Of a DNA stretch of 64,000 nucleotides, positions 19,223-63,089 are shown one piece after another. Every line of letters starts with the position of its first letter. Position 1 is the first letter of the stretch. The notes under the pieces were generated by a model. It was not told the origin of the DNA. It saw only the letters and a list, made by a program, of their open reading frames with translations, and searched no databases. Where the stretch lies: contig NZ_SNXO01000008.1 in assembly GCF_004362975.1 (NCBI RefSeq), positions 1 to 64,000 of the forward strand. The letters are read 5' to 3'. The translations under genes were made by a program, and so were the position numbers. The DNA is from Aminicella lysinilytica. Its GTDB lineage: Bacteria > Bacillota > Clostridia > Peptostreptococcales > Anaerovoracaceae.

Positions 19223-20300
19223 ATTGAATCTTAATTAACTAACGAAGCAGATTTGGATCATATTTAACGTTTTGCGTTTCCAAAGTGTATATCACACGGA
19301 TAAGCTTTTTAGCAACGTGTGACAATGCAACTCTGTGAGGTTTTCCTTCACTACGTTTCTTGTTATAGTATGCAGCAAACACGGGATTGAACCTGATCAG
19401 CGGAATGCAAACATTCATAAGTGTAAATCGCAAATGTGAGGAACCTCGCTTAACCATTTTCCCGGTATGTTCGGAGATCCCGGATTGATAATACACTGGT
19501 TCCATTCCTGCAAAAGAAAGCATCTGAGCAGGGGATTTGAACCGAGAAATATCACCGAACTCCGAAACAATAACGGCAGCTGATAACGGCCCCACACCAT
19601 AAATAGACAGAGTGGGTTTATCGAGGGCTGTAATCAAATCAATGATTTGAGATTCAAGTTCATCAACTTTGGCGGCGATTGTCTTATGCAAATCAAGCAG
19701 CACAGACAGTTCTGAATCCAAAATCTCGTTTGTTTCACCAACGGTATTCGTTGCAAGATCCTTGAGGTTAAAGAATTTTGCCAATGTGAAGCGATTACGC
19801 TAGATTTTGCGAGCAGTCACAGAGAATTTATTGCCAAAGAATGGCTTAAATTCAGGAAAAACGTGATCAAGTACATTGGTGATCTTGACAAGATAGAAGC
19901 TACGTTGACGAACCAAAGCATCACGCAAGCGAGTTAGTGACTTTAAAGAGTAAAGGACAGAAAGAAGTTTGGAGAAACCGTCAGCATCGTTTTTAACGAC
20001 AAGGTCGTTAGCAATCACTTCACCATCAGAATTGATGATGTAACAATCGTGCTTGTACTTGGAAATATCAATTCCTACATAGTACATAAAAACCTCCTTA
20101 GGTTATGGGTTATAACGAAGCACTGCATGTTTGCCACAGGATCTTCCGCTGTGTAGACTCGTAAATAAAAACATCAAAGTGTTAACTAACTCATTACCAG
20201 TAAAACGAAAAGACTGTGGTCTGTGTCTCCTTGTAATAGTCAAAGCTATAGAATTATAGATACAAATCCACAGTGCAAATATATTATATCGTCGGAATAT
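19223..20300 (-). mobile_element. Decayed IS110-family insertion sequence
   Basis: The element is recognised by its broken transposase (19239-20087, minus) plus about 200 bp of noncoding sequence upstream of it. IS110 elements have no terminal inverted repeats, so the ends cannot be fixed by eye and the limits given are approximate. In the IS110 group the noncoding end before the gene encodes the bridge RNA; 20088-20300 is in that position and may be its relic. Confidence 0.6.
19239..20087 (-). pseudogene. IS110-family transposase, internally deleted
   Basis: Two open pieces remain. The N-terminal piece (20087 down to 19800, 95 residues) starts MYYVGIDISKYKHDCYI, the DEDD/RuvC-like start, and ends at a stop after VTARKI. 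The C-terminal piece (19784 down to 19239, 181 residues) has the Transposase_20 region with GVGPLSAAVIVSEFGD, FAGMEP and SGISEHTGKMVKRGSS. Intact relatives are about 400 residues, so roughly 100-130 residues are missing, both inside the first piece (after SVLYSL, directly joined to KSLTRLRDALV) and at the junction. The catalytic acidic set is incomplete, so it should be inactive. Confidence 0.85.
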
Positions 20301-23371: not shown

Positions 23372-24033
23372 CAGCGGAATTTTCTTTTCCTTGAGTTTTC
23401 CATATGTCTTTTCATAGCCAGGGCGCCACCATCTACATCCTTTGCGATGAAAGCGTCATAAATGGCTCGGTGTTCAGAAAGCACGTCTCTCAGATAATTA
23501 GGTGCGTAGTAATTGGAAGGGTTGCTGTGCCGCAGGTACAGCTGATAAGCATTCAGTTCCTGCTTAAGCATCCTGTTATGGGTGGCATCGTATATGATCT
23601 TATGGAATGCCAGGTTGATGTTGAGCATCTTAGGAATATCGTTCTTCATAGTGTAGAATTCCATGAACTCAAATGTCTCGTTGAGGGCTTCCATTTCCTC
23701 GTCAGTGATGCGCTTGATGGCCCATCTTACGGCGATGACCTCGGCTTCAGCCCGGAGTATGTACATGTCAGAAATATCCTGTTCTGAAAGACCAACCACA
23801 AAAGCTCCGCGGTTCGGAACGGTCTTTATCAGGCCGTTCATTTCCAGCTGGCGAAGTGCCTCGCGTACCGGTGTGCGACTTACGCTGTATTCATTGCATA
23901 TGCGCATTTCAGTCAGTTTATCTCCGTTTTCCAGTTTTCCTGTCAGGATATCTTCCTGTAGTTTGGAAAACAAATCACTGGAAAGGGGCTGATTAGTATC
24001 TTTAGCTTCCTCAAGATATTGATTGATCGACAT
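23371..24033 (-). CDS. GntR-family transcriptional regulator, FCD (FadR) subfamily
   Basis: A 220-residue repressor-type protein. The N-terminal winged helix-turn-helix (about 17-80) has CNEYSVSRTPVREALRQLEMNGLI, the GntR signature. The C-terminal all-helical FCD domain carries the likely metal ligands in NLAFHKIIYD, LSEHRAIYDAF and KRHMENS, so the effector is probably a carboxylic acid seen through a bound metal. ATG 24033 follows GGAGGTAAT; 18 codons of open frame upstream were discarded. It sits divergently from nth. Ligand and targets are unknown; a palindrome on its own start site suggests autoregulation. Confidence 0.88.
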   Translation of the reverse strand: MSINQYLEEAKDTNQPLSSDLFSKLQEDILTGKLENGDKLTEMRICNEYSVSRTPVREALRQLEMNGLIKTVPNRGAFVVGLSEQDISDMYILRAEAEVIAVRWAIKRITDEEMEALNETFEFMEFYTMKNDIPKMLNINLAFHKIIYDATHNRMLKQELNAYQLYLRHSNPSNYYAPNYLRDVLSEHRAIYDAFIAKDVDGGALAMKRHMENSRKRKFR

Positions 24034-24045
24034 GAGATTACCTCC

Positions 24046-24057
24046 GTTTATGTAAAC
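24046..24057. promoter_or_regulatory. Probable GntR operator
   Basis: GTTTA-TG-TAAAC is a 12-bp inverted repeat lying on the predicted transcription start (about 24052) of the gntR gene and just before its ribosome site. FCD regulators commonly bind short palindromes at their own promoters. Confidence 0.5.
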
Positions 24058-24058
24058 A

Positions 24059-24087
24059 ATTATACTTTCATTAAAGATACCTGTCAA
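24059..24087 (-). promoter_or_regulatory. Consensus sigma-A promoter of the GntR gene
   Basis: On the minus strand TTGACA (24087-24082), 17 bp and TATAAT (24064-24059) match the consensus at all twelve positions. Such a strong promoter fits a gene held down by its own repressor. Confidence 0.85.
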
Positions 24088-24100
24088 GGAAGTAGATAAC

Positions 24101-24129
24101 TTGATTTTTACCCCTTCGGAATATATAAT
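24101..24129 (+). promoter_or_regulatory. Sigma-A promoter of nth
   Basis: TTGATT (24101-24106), 17-bp spacer, TATAAT (24124-24129). Only six bases separate the -10 box from the nth ATG, so the transcript should begin at or next to the start codon. Confidence 0.75.
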
Positions 24130-24135
24130 GTACCC

Positions 24136-24759
24136 ATGGATAAAAAGATTGTAAAGAAGATATTAGATGCTTTGGATAATGAATATCCTGAAGCAAAATG
24201 TGCGCTGGATCATGTAGATGTGTTCCAGCTGATCGTAGCCGTAGCACTGTCTGCTCAGACGACTGATGTCAGCGTGAACAAAGTAACGCCTGCGTTGTTT
24301 GCGGCTTACCCGGATGCTGCTGCCCTGGCGGCGGCTGACACAGCGGATGTGGCTGAGTTGATCCGGACTATAGGCATGTATAGGACAAAGTCTAAGAATA
24401 TCGTGGCTATGGCGGCTCGCCTGCGCGATGATTTCGGCGGTCAGGTGCCTAATGATTATGACAGTCTGGTTTCGCTGCCGGGGGTAGGCAGGAAGACTGC
24501 CAATGTGGTGCTTTCTGTTGGTTTCGGTCAACAAAGGATAGCTGTAGATACTCATGTTTTCCGTGTTTCTAACCGTATCGGCCTGGTTCACGAGAAGGAT
24601 GTGCTGAAGACGGAGCTCGCTCTTATGGATTGTATTCCTGAGTCGCGCTGGTCACGGACTCACCATTCGCTGATTTTCCACGGCCGCAATTGCTGTACAG
24701 CTCGCAAACCTAAGTGTGAGGAATGCTGCATACAGGAGTTTTGCGAGAAGAACCTGTAG
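24136..24759 (+). CDS. nth: Endonuclease III (DNA glycosylase/AP lyase)
   Basis: A 207-residue base-excision repair enzyme that removes oxidised pyrimidines and nicks abasic sites. Helix-hairpin-helix LPGVGRKTANVV supplies catalytic Lys120, VDTHV gives Asp138, and the 4Fe-4S loop C187-x6-C194-x2-C197-x5-C203 is complete. All these residues fall on the same numbers as in the E. coli enzyme, which fixes the start at ATG 24136. No Shine-Dalgarno sequence precedes it and the promoter -10 is 6 nt away, so the mRNA is probably leaderless. Confidence 0.95.
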   Translation: MDKKIVKKILDALDNEYPEAKCALDHVDVFQLIVAVALSAQTTDVSVNKVTPALFAAYPDAAALAAADTADVAELIRTIGMYRTKSKNIVAMAARLRDDFGGQVPNDYDSLVSLPGVGRKTANVVLSVGFGQQRIAVDTHVFRVSNRIGLVHEKDVLKTELALMDCIPESRWSRTHHSLIFHGRNCCTARKPKCEECCIQEFCEKNL

Positions 24760-24768
24760 GTCTATACC
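24741..24768 (+). promoter_or_regulatory. Possible promoter for the structured RNA
   Basis: TTGCGA (24741-24746), 16 bp and TATACC (24763-24768) overlap the end of nth and predict a start near 24775, a few bases before the first strand of the closing helix. Each box matches the consensus at four of six positions, so support is modest. Confidence 0.35.
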
Positions 24769-24774
24769 TGACCT

Positions 24775-25210
24775 AGCTACTTGTCCTCGTGCGCGAACAG
24801 CCCATTACGATTCATAAAACCAAGAATAGAGTACCATGCAAACTTGTTGAAGCGTGGAAGCCTCTTCAAGGCTTTAAAGGATGATTACTTGATAAGACCA
24901 TACTAGTATGGTCTTATCATCGTATTCACCCTTTGCTTCAACTTCATACAGTGCATGGTACTTCGCTATTCTTGCTGTTTTACTTCATCGTGGTCTGTAT
25001 CTGCTCCTGCGGAATCGTAGCGGGTCAGGTTAGCCTACATACTTGAAAGAATCTTAGGTTTTGGCTTGGATGTTTGATCAATAACGATGTTGAAATGGCA
25101 TTTGCATGGCAGTAAAAGACTGTGAGGCCTGAACGATTCCGCAGTGACAGGTACAACCATAGTCGCGGACGAGTAACAAGAACAGACAAATGTGCGACGC
25201 TGTCTGAGTT
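24775..25210 (+). ncRNA. Candidate large structured noncoding RNA, unassigned
   Basis: This 630-bp gene-free gap has far more base pairing than chance. A closing helix joins 24781-24796 with 25163-25179 (14 bp, one mismatch, one small internal loop). Inside it, a rod pairs 24807-24853 with 24935-24991 (blocks of 5, 6, 9, 10 and 8 bp) and is capped by a 13-bp perfect palindromic hairpin (24891-24918) and a small AAGCC/GGCTT hairpin. A third helix pairs 25007-25029 with 25128-25144 (12 + 5 bp). CAGACA/TGTCTG forms a hairpin at 25182-25205 and a strong terminator follows. It does not resemble tmRNA, 6S, SRP or RNase P RNA. Strand is inferred from the candidate promoter and terminator. Confidence 0.55.
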
Positions 25211-25215
25211 GAAAT

Positions 25216-25277
25216 AAAAAATAGAATCCCGTAGAGTAAATCTTACTTGTATGATTTACGAAGGGATTCTATTTTTA
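25216..25277. terminator. Bidirectional intrinsic terminator
   Basis: AAAATAGAATCCC and GTAAATC pair with GATTTAC and GGGATTCTATTTT across the loop TTACTTGTAT, with T-runs on both strands. It can end the candidate RNA on the plus strand and the hom-SEC-C operon on the minus strand. The 112 bp from here to the SEC-C stop hold no recognised feature. Confidence 0.85.
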
Positions 25278-25389
25278 AAGGCTCCGAAGGAGACTTTAGA
25301 TATTTCAACGAGTTCGTCACACATTCTGTTCTTGACGAGTGAGACTATATGGTTCTCTGTTATGAGGACCAGTGAAGGCTTCACAGCTT

Positions 25390-25890
25390 TTACAAGTTCT
25401 TGCCGCAGCAGTTCTTATACTTCTTGCCACTTCCGCATGGGCATGGATCATTGCGGCCAGGTTTCTTAGGAGCGTGATAGACCTTAGACTTGTTATACTC
25501 CTTAACAATAGAAGCACGTTTTTCCTCATCCAGGACCTTCTCCCACTGAGGAAGCTCATAAAGATGAGCAGCATCAGCCTTATGCATGTTATAATACAAT
25601 TTCTCGAAGTCAACAGATAGATCAATCTCCGAATCCTCATCTATGGATTCTACATCGATATCCTTCTTCAGGCTGGATGTGATGCCATCCAAAAAACCCT
25701 CGAATATTACAGGACGGCAACTGAACTTCTCAGCAAGCTCGCTGACCTTACCCTTCAGATGTGTTCTGTGGTGAGCCAGGATATAAGTGTAAATAGCTAC
25801 TTCACCATCACTGTATTCCTTCCAGAAATCCTTGAAAGAATCATCAGTCTGATTATCCAGCAGGTTTTTCCAATCTTCATATAAACTCAT
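25390..25890 (-). CDS. SEC-C motif protein of unknown function
   Basis: A 166-residue protein whose last 25 residues are a SEC-C zinc-binding motif ([18 protein letters not shown]), as at the end of SecA, where it binds zinc and SecB or ribosomes. The preceding 140 residues are mostly helical and acidic, without a family I can name. AGGAGG before its ATG overlaps the hom stop, so the two are translationally linked. A link to protein export or ribosome association is inference. Confidence 0.75.
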
Positions 25891-25901
25891 TTCATTTCCT
25901 C

Positions 25902-26873
25902 CTAAGCCATAGCTTTCATGATCGATATTACATCACCGACGATGGCACTTCCAGTCGGAAGGGCGCCGGCGCCTTTTCCGTAGAACATTACTTCACCTAC
26001 GGCGTTGCCCGTAACATATATAGCATTAAATTCGTTAGACACACCTGCAAGAGGGTGACTGTACGGGATCTCCATAGGTTTGATCTCATAAGACAGCTTG
26101 CCGGCTTCGTCAATAGAAGCATGAGCGATAAGCTTGATTTTGCAATCTTTTGCCTTTGCGGCAGCTATGTCATCCATAGTAACGCCGGTTATGCCGACTG
26201 TAGGAATATCCCTAGGCGCAACATATTTATCAAAGGCCAGAGCCATTAAGATCGACAGTTTGTTTGCCACATCTATGCCTTCAACGTCTGCCGTGGGATC
26301 AGCCTCAGCGAAACCCTTTGCCTGAGCGTCTTTCAGGACAGCATCGTAAGCCAGGCCTTCATCACCCATCTTAGTCATGATATAATTGGTGGTACCGTTG
26401 AGTATCCCCATGACATCTGTGAATTCGTTGCCCGCCAGAGCCTCTGTGATAGCCGTCAGGGCAGGAATCCCACCGCCGACGCAGGCTTCGATGCGGATCT
26501 GAACACCGTGGGCCTTAGCCGCAGACGTGAGCTTCTCATAATTAGCCGCAACAGCAGCTTTGTTCGGGGTCACGACACTTTTGCCATGGTTCAGAGCCTT
26601 CAGCATGAATGATGACGATGGCTCTACGCCCCCCAGGGACTCGATGACGATATCCACATCATCTCCGGTCAGGATCGCGTCAACATCAGATGTGACGATG
26701 GCCGGATCGACGCCGTGAGCCTCGACCGCCTTCATATTTATCTCAAGAACGCGGGTGACGCAGTAATCAACGCCGGTACGTCTCGTAATGAGCTCCTTAT
26801 TCATTTTCAAAATGTCGTATGTGCCTCCGCCTACAGTTCCCAGGCCGAGGATGCCGATATTTACTTTCTTCAT
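25902..26873 (-). CDS. hom: Homoserine dehydrogenase lacking the ACT domain
   Basis: Reduces aspartate semialdehyde to homoserine, the branch point to threonine and methionine. The 323-residue product has the N-terminal Rossmann motif [24 protein letters not shown], and the catalytic region [11 protein letters not shown] ... [20 protein letters not shown] ... [18 protein letters not shown]. It stops right after this domain, about 100 residues short of the usual 400-430-residue enzyme, so the C-terminal ACT regulatory domain is absent. ATG 26873 follows AAAGGAGG; the longer open frame upstream is not coding-like. Co-transcribed with the SEC-C gene. Confidence 0.92.
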
Positions 26874-44930: not shown

Positions 44931-44959
44931 GGAATGGAAGAGTATTCTTCCTGACTTTC

Positions 44960-45040
44960 TGCTTCCCTACGTCAGTATTAACTGAATCAGGTTATGAGGG
45001 TTTTACCTTGCGGCAAGTCTCAGCTCAAGCTCCCCTAGCT
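44960..45040 (-). ncRNA. TPP riboswitch (THI element)
   Basis: Minus-strand aptamer with the conserved pieces TAGGGGAGC, GCTGAGA, ACCC, ACCTGATTCAG, TAATACTGACGTAGGGAA in the right order. It binds thiamine pyrophosphate and turns off thiT when the cofactor is plentiful. AGGGGA of the aptamer 5' strand can pair with TCCCCT between aptamer and terminator, a candidate antiterminator. Confidence 0.95.
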
Positions 45041-45063
45041 AATATTTAATTGCAACGACTACA

Positions 45064-62707: not shown

Positions 62708-63053
62708 TCATGGGTAGACCAGATGATCGCGTGCGCAAGCATGAGGAAAGTCCGGGCTCCACAGAGCAAGGATGCCGAGATAACGTCCGGCGTAGGTAAC
62801 TATAGGGAAAGTGCAACAGAAACACACCGCCGAAACGGGTAATGCCGTGGTAAGGTTGAAATGGTGAGGTAAGAGCTCACCGGCGTCATGGAAACATGGC
62901 GGCCGTGTAAACCCCATCCGGAGCAAGGTCGAAAGGGCAGTAAGACGGTTGCTCGCCGTCGCCCGGTAGGTGGACCGCAAGAGCGTGCAGCGATGTTACG
63001 CCTCAGATAGATGATCGTCTAATACAGAACCCGGCTTATAGGGCTACCCATGA
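62708..63053 (+). ncRNA. rnpB: RNase P RNA (catalytic subunit)
   Basis: About 346 nt. The ends TCATGGGTAG and CTACCCATGA form helix P1. Conserved core pieces are GAGGAAAGTCCGGGCTCC, AACGGGTAATGCCGTGG, AAACCCCATCCGGAGCAAG and ACAGAACCCGGCTTATAG, in the normal order. The ribozyme matures the 5' end of tRNAs. Seven T follow P1 (63054-63060), so P1 itself probably acts as terminator. The whole space between the nif3-like and MATE genes is taken by this RNA, its promoter and the MATE ribosome site. Confidence 0.97.
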
Positions 63054-63089
63054 TTTTTTTATACAATTACGATACAGAAAGGTGATTTT

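Follow-up and report, generated by a model that had tools for sequence, protein, structure and literature searches.

The gap between nth and the SEC-C motif gene of Aminicella lysinilytica, positions 24757-25396 of the window (the whole 64,000-nucleotide stretch that we analysed), consists of a dispersed element present in two convergent copies, A on the plus strand and B on the minus strand, as seen both by blastn and by alignment of the copies. Most probably these are copies of a non-autonomous mobile repeat that is recognised as a folded single strand and resembles REP and BOX elements in its behaviour. We favour such a non-autonomous mobile structured repeat because the element is absent from the nth gaps of congeneric genomes and because the sets of copies differ between genomes. 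If this is right, a repeat family uncatalogued in the libraries searched has put dozens of long hairpins at the 3' ends of genes in one clostridial genome, with relatives elsewhere, and its diverged copies are numerous enough for covariation to resolve the fold at the level of base pairs. The family would then be a natural experiment in two respects: the spread of folded repeats that lack their own transposase, and the effect of a giant hairpin at a stop codon on translation and mRNA decay.

When searched by blastn against its own genome (G000; 2.29 Mb in 91 contigs), the region produced 52 matches across many contigs, itself included. A covariance model, R1, built from 33 of the G000 copies found 38 matches of at least 116 bits there, 33 of them by construction and five from outside the model; 37 of the 38 span the whole model. 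The next-best match in the genome scored 55.9 bits, and the remaining ones were mostly opposite-strand echoes. Where the initial annotation had seen one non-coding RNA specific to this gap, there are two members of a family whose strong copies number 38 in the genome. Our per-copy counts refer to 35 of these 38, with C12:4300 (truncated), C4:93347 (short) and C21:14502 left out. A second model, R2, was built from 28 copies of 12 genomes, one of them a short G000 copy.

Read in the direction of the abutted gene, the element runs from the stop codon through the 5' strand of an outer stem of about 25 nt to GTCCTCGTGCGC and a helical rod with conserved internal loops. An AAACTCG/CTCARACAG internal loop then leads to the apex, which in G000 mostly comprises two arms (P7 and P8), and the rod returns to TGCTCCTGCGGAATC, the 3' strand of the outer stem and, in 20 of the 35 copies, a tail of the form GTTGAAAG..TCCTTGG.TTTT, a motif found in 0/35 windows of the same length on the 5' side. 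This plan is common to those G000 copies whose folds were inspected, a part of the set, and some of them differ in detail. With its outer stems the element measures about 180-290 nt; the cores of shorter versions in other species and genera measure about 130-175 nt.

Copy A abuts the 3' end of nth, which encodes endonuclease III (24136-24759, plus strand; PF00730, E 1.1e-23; PF10576, E 1.7e-6) and whose nearest relatives among named records are MAGs from ruminants, Gallibacter intestinalis and [Eubacterium] infirmum. (NCBI taxonomy places Gallibacter in Eubacteriaceae.) The whole hairpin of copy A, outer stem plus core, occupies 24757-25042 on the plus strand and begins at the nth stop codon itself (TAG, 24757-24759); its R1 match covers 24779-25019 with 208.8 bits. 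The copy-specific 5' strand of the outer stem (24757-24782) pairs with the 3' strand at 25017-25040 in a duplex of -30.4 kcal/mol, and the two enclose the core from GTCCTCGTGCGC to TGCTCCTGCGGAATC (24783-25016), delimited from two alignments (A1, A2) of 33 copies. Within the core, near-invariant columns mark both sides of the conserved internal loop, AAACTTG on the left (24840-24846; AAACTCG in the family) and CTTCATACAG on the right (24942-24951; CTCARACAG in the family). The apical arm P7 lies at 24857-24875, where other copies have different sequences that also pair, and P8 at 24876-24934, a segment that matches its own inverse in blastn. The tail of copy A (25042-25073) follows the family pattern GTTGAAAG..TCCTTGGTTTTGGCTTTGATT. 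Copy B lies on the minus strand at 25110-25396, beginning by the stop codon (25392-25390) of the SEC-C motif gene (25390-25890, minus strand; PF02810, E 2.9e-10), whose 3' end it abuts. Its R1 match covers 25132-25373 with 226.9 bits, its core, delimited from the same two alignments, runs from 25370 to 25136, and its arm P8 folds at 25218-25275.

The initial annotation had read most of this gap as a single RNA of unassigned class, closed by a stem linking sites almost 400 nt apart. It was right that the gap is large, strongly structured and without a convincing coding frame: the fold of 24767-25290 reached -200.9 kcal/mol against -133.2 +- 6.9 for shuffled sequences (z -9.8). Each copy folded alone did better still by this measure, with -122.9 kcal/mol and z -12.07 for copy A (24757-25042) and -119.0 kcal/mol and z -11.21 for copy B (25110-25396, plus strand folded). 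In the joint fold of 24757-25396 (-257.4), pairs between the copies accounted for 47.9 of 227.8 expected pairs. The helices that had been named are real as duplexes, at -18.3 kcal/mol for the closing stem (24781-24796 with 25163-25179), -43.3 for the rod (24807-24853 with 24935-24991) and -25.1 for a 17-bp helix (25007-25029 with 25128-25144), but the closing stem and the 17-bp helix bridge the two copies. The former pairs the left end of copy A with copy B, and the latter pairs the right end of copy A (CCTGCGGAATCG) with the inverted right end of copy B. Only the rod, with the 13-bp perfect hairpin contained in P8, is internal to copy A. What had been taken for a 3' hairpin followed by a terminator is the apical arm of copy B, and a scan for intrinsic terminators (a GC stem with a T run directly after it, loops of 3-8 nt) found no site in 24000-26200 against 1.4 expected.

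Energy alone has no power to exclude the single-RNA fold, and it was comparison of the copies that favoured a fold within each copy. The shared fold is internal to one copy, and 23 of the 35 copies do not belong to convergent pairs, both of which argue against one joint RNA. We therefore reject an RNA closed by pairing of 24781-24796 with 25163-25179, which is pairing between inverted copies, and with it an orphan RNA of 400 nt; the structure itself is real. For orphan large RNAs proposed from one genome, copy number is worth checking first, since pairing between inverted copies can mimic a closing stem. The other 12 copies form six convergent pairs (in the window and at loci L009, L010, L018, L019 and L022). 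The two copies in the window would have arrived independently, one behind nth and one behind the SEC-C gene, and would face each other by chance. In all six pairs exactly one member carries the tail. A complete copy is followed by a second right end, with an outer-stem 3' strand and a tail, in L012 (about 1105-1250) and in L016 (about 980-1080), as if copies could replace or duplicate one another.

The claim that the region is unclassified held up. tmRNA, 6S, OLE, ROOL, GOLLD, raiA and HEARO are all members of Rfam, and the region had no Rfam match at gathering level; at E<=1 there were three sub-threshold matches, the best with E 0.098 and all below 25 bits. Eleven loci of relatives gave no Rfam match at E<=0.05, and 16 class-level loci gave two weak matches below gathering level. 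Across the whole window, the only gathering-level matches in Rfam 15 were RNase P RNA class A (62711-63054, plus strand) and a TPP riboswitch (44947-45046, minus strand), both outside the region. Literature searches, including one with four short strings of the element, found no description of the repeat among the matches listed, all from papers outside subscription.

The helices of the element covary. RNAalifold predicted 63 pairs from the 33 G000 copies, with two-sided changes in 46 of them, and in the alignment of 28 copies from 12 genomes two-sided changes affected 44 of 49 pairs. In the latter alignment, 87.4% of cells were paired, against 32-44% when partners were slid, and the covariation score was 0.622 against 0.214 +- 0.011 after shuffling; in 500 shuffles the observed values were never reached. 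The structure had been derived from the very alignment on which it was tested, and the copies are related, so that p-values overstate independence. The covariation therefore shows a shared, maintained fold rather than a tally of independent events. Unpaired loops and core ends are near-invariant across genera. The outer stem of about 25 bp is copy-specific: in 30 of 35 copies its own pairing exceeded the 95th percentile of cross-copy pairings, a comparison in which own pairings were allowed 16 start offsets and cross pairings four. Of 769 aligned cells in outer stems, 654 are Watson-Crick, though the sequence of the stem differs between copies.

The two strands of the element are not equivalent. 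Relative to the abutted gene, the antisense strand folded better in 26 of the 35 G000 copies (the reverse in eight, equal in one), by a mean difference of 6.3 kcal/mol (Wilcoxon p 3.5e-4). Similar results were obtained with 45 other copies, oriented by the strand of the model, including the short G000 copy L191 and excluding L183, which holds an N: antisense was better in 39, the reverse in five and equal in one, with a mean difference of 6.6 kcal/mol (p 1e-7). The consensus fold was likewise better on the antisense strand (-61.2 versus -48.0; -32.0 versus -26.9), and GU-type counts leaned moderately the same way, with 30 versus 19 in the outer stem (p 0.15) and 27 versus 12 among shared core pairs. 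Internal loops of the antisense strand are GA-rich, namely CGCAGGAG/CGACGAGGAC and CTGTTTGAG/CGAGTTT, as loops of RNAs and of folded single-stranded DNA usually are. The selected form would be a single strand, either ssDNA or RNA, and its GA-rich internal loops and better folding make the strand antisense to the abutted gene the more likely one.

Placement of the element at gene ends is tight in G000. A stop codon precedes the core by 19-31 nt in 26 of the 35 copies, counting same-strand open frames of at least 60 codons at element copies alone, and in 20 of these 26 no more than 6 nt separate the end of the outer helix from the first base of the stop codon. Three copies, L019-, L026 and L029, lie well away from any stop codon and are preceded by a T run; their stems have the same length, and thus the length of the stem belongs to the element. 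It is the edge of the element that is placed at the end of a gene, or perhaps of a transcript. Spacing is looser elsewhere, with 19-31 nt in 0/14 copies of genome G013 and in 2/8 of G165. Any effect on the host would be that of a hairpin in the 3' UTR or at the gene end, and both the stop-codon spacing and the cross-genus covariation could equally reflect use by the host. We found no clear promoter belonging to the element, the 2.2 kb scanned holding seven promoter-like sites where 3.7 are expected; a site matching at 12 of 12 positions lies upstream of nth, at 24087-24059.

The initial annotation had looked to orthologous gaps downstream of nth for conservation, and the element is absent there. 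We found nth in 15 of 16 congeneric genomes, and neither R1 nor R2 had a match in the nth-downstream gap of these 15 loci. Elsewhere in the same loci, R2 detected one short form missed by R1 (95 nt, 46.3 bits; L208 1216-1310), about 190 bp upstream of nth in G013, and two further matches at chance level. Seven of the 15 loci (L206, L208, L209, L210, L212, L214 and L218) have nth and the SEC-C gene in convergent orientation, the two stop codons being 9 nt apart in G013 (L208). At L209 (G008) and L206 (G002), the nth-downstream gap lacks the element and is occupied by a different repeat, arrayed head to tail (..CGTAAACCGCCACGCACTAAAGTGCTGCGG..).

Copy number ranges from 0 to 38 among congeneric genomes, and the sets of copies differ between genomes. 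R2 gave 18 matches in G013, 11 in G166, eight in G014, seven in G009, three each in G007 and G011 and two in G008, some of them short or partial, and none in nine of the 15 other congeneric genomes searched (G001-G006, G010, G012 and G016). Three related MAGs (L053-L055, loci 91-94% identical) share one orthologous copy downstream of nth, facing it from behind the stop codon of another gene, so the element can also be inherited in place. Class-wide, R2 matched 21 of 391 genomes at E<=0.001, several of the matches being partial and weak; as at most six candidates per genome were scored, this number is rough in both directions. Some of the class-level matches fold as long hairpins built around CTGTTTGAG..CGAGTTT. 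Searched for exactly, the pattern AACTCG N{2,14} CTCAAACAG occurred in 48 of 398 genomes of the phylum, at up to 23 places in G922 (control 0). It is absent from G000 itself, where the apex is enlarged, and single matches at L269, L270 and L274, which have no long hairpin, look like chance or coding sequence. Covariance models were needed to see the family: a blastn search with copy A in 60 relatives recovered almost none of it.

We infer the dispersal of the element from this distribution and not from a mechanism. The element would have spread with the help of an enzyme whose gene lies elsewhere and which recognises the folded strand. To the initial annotation, a transposon remnant in the region would have counted against its RNA; lineage-specific dispersion does point in that direction, but a transposase of the element's own was not found. 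A candidate for an autonomous version with an open reading frame, at L035 and the end of contig C32, was rejected, as the sequence past the break recurs at the end of contig C50 behind unrelated DNA, with 132 nt at 98% identity. What follows the break therefore appears to be another repeated element, without relation to ours, that inserted into a copy; at L035 (690-898) and the C50 contig end this repeated element, which starts GGAGACAATATGAAGTGACC, sits in the apex of one copy. G000 copies gave no clear sign of target duplication, the longest string shared by their flanks averaging 5.8 nt for own and 5.5 nt for cross comparisons. Nor did any protein recur beside them: with elements masked, 28 loci gave three clusters of two loci each. 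No match was found in 50,697 phage records, though one viral contig (L292) carries the apical motif. The searches thus lent no support to a known Rfam class, to a phage origin or to a recurring neighbouring protein, nor to RAYT/REP or, as a general answer, UPF0236 MITEs.

That the copies are MITEs of a UPF0236 (PF06782) insertion sequence we consider quite improbable, and at most true of the subfamily in G013. There, arms of about 85 nt, in part one-sided, extend 11 of the 14 copies and have ends resembling those of a neighbouring UPF0236 insertion sequence, and a 9-bp flanking repeat is present in two of eight scorable copies (three of the 11 being unscorable), where mismatched flanks share at least seven letters in 7 of 56 pairings. 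At L172, L174 and L176 in G013, the insertion sequence directly adjoins copies of the element and has terminal sequence in common with their arms. G000 has an intact-looking UPF0236 frame as well, a single one of 480 aa, but the ends of its element, the sole one tested, are shared by 0/35 G000 copies, and UPF0236 matches occurred in only four of 13 element-bearing genomes searched and in one of nine without the element. Movement by a RAYT (Y1) transposase, as for REP elements, would suit a palindromic, extragenic repeat behind stop codons, yet it is scarcely credible here: PF01797 is absent from G000 and from six of seven other genomes searched (it is present in G089, and the E. coli control was positive), and the element is far larger than the 10-71 nt given for predicted E. 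coli REPs in PMC12306157. Since the search for a REP transposase and the comparison of G000 copies with the ends of the UPF0236 element were both negative, while flanking repeats pointed neither way, we file the element under no named family; on the features tested, it is a new family of structured interspersed repeats.

The strongest rival to the mobile repeat, and one that is not exclusive with it, is a family of functional RNAs, in which an antisense RNA of about 150-290 nt binds a protein through its GA-rich loops and the copies are paralogous RNA genes or 3'-end regulators. Strand asymmetry, strong cross-genus covariation, the conserved loops CTGTTTGAG/CGAGTTT, near-constant stop-codon spacing in G000 and the tail in 20 of 35 copies all suit such a family. 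It is nevertheless unlikely, given a copy number of 0 to 38 among congeneric genomes, the lack of any copy behind nth in the genus, the longer insertion-like arms that enclose the G013 copies and the want of a clear promoter. A selfish or domesticated structured-RNA element is a further reading, which we hold distinctly unlikely: the antisense strand would be transcribed, the loops CGCAGGAG/CGACGAGGAC and CTGTTTGAG/CGAGTTT would bind a protein found in many Bacillota, and the complex would copy the element and dock it at the ends of transcripts, where each copy would close its own outer stem as far as the stop codon. Covariation might also arise without selection, if template switching during replication kept long palindromes perfect while the fold went unused. 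This would account for outer stems that are mostly Watson-Crick despite differing between copies, but it fails to predict the near-invariant unpaired loops and core ends across genera, the stop-codon spacing or the strand asymmetry, and is improbable.

Viewed as a mobile structured repeat, the element has partial counterparts elsewhere. BOX, RUP and SPRITE of Streptococcus pneumoniae are, according to PMC3049150, small interspersed repeats with strong predicted RNA folds and 30 to 125 copies per family per genome, lineage-restricted and judged parasitic by the authors; BOX has a modular build (67-637 bp), and both it and RUP show terminal inverted repeats as well as target duplications. Our element likewise has dispersed copies, with a shared fold supported by covariation, and lineage-specific sets. 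In contrast to BOX and RUP, its G000 copies revealed no terminal inverted repeats and no clear target duplications, and we liken it to BOX by description. REP/BIME sequences of enterobacteria are extragenic palindromes found at the 3' ends of genes, in some cases no farther than 15 nt from the stop codon according to PMC12306157, whose reference 17 is cited there for ribosome stalling at such sites. The element shares with them its extragenic palindromic nature near gene 3' ends (a stop codon 19-31 nt from the core in 26/35), and differs in its size, with outer stems, and in the lack of a RAYT-type transposase in G000. Palindromic candidate structured RNAs of human microbiomes, with structures predicted on both strands, make up 250 of 3161 candidates in PMC8040213; the four described are of 80-132 bp and mostly or wholly from Bacteroidetes, and 230 of the 250 are predicted terminators. 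Structure on both strands is a trait of our element too, which we set apart from those candidates by description. Likeness to UPF0236 MITEs is confined to the G013 arms, and G000 copies share nothing with the ends of their own genome's UPF0236 element.

Several minor observations accompany these results. The apical hairpin motif occurs outside Bacillota, at three places on the Ilyobacter polytropus plasmid pILYOP01 (NC_014633.1; L309), as 30 nt at 93% with no annotated feature under the match. On a viral contig (L292), the apical motif lies within a long hairpin of -82.6 kcal/mol. Beside a copy of the element in G501, positions 1307-1408 of L243 match the C. difficile sRNA n00280 below gathering level (39.1 bits against a cut-off of 65.2). 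In the window itself, a 95-aa frame on the minus strand (19800-20087), upstream of a clpB-like frame, matches the N-terminus of IS110-type transposases with residues 4-43 (PF01548, E 2.2e-13) and is a probable remnant of an insertion sequence.
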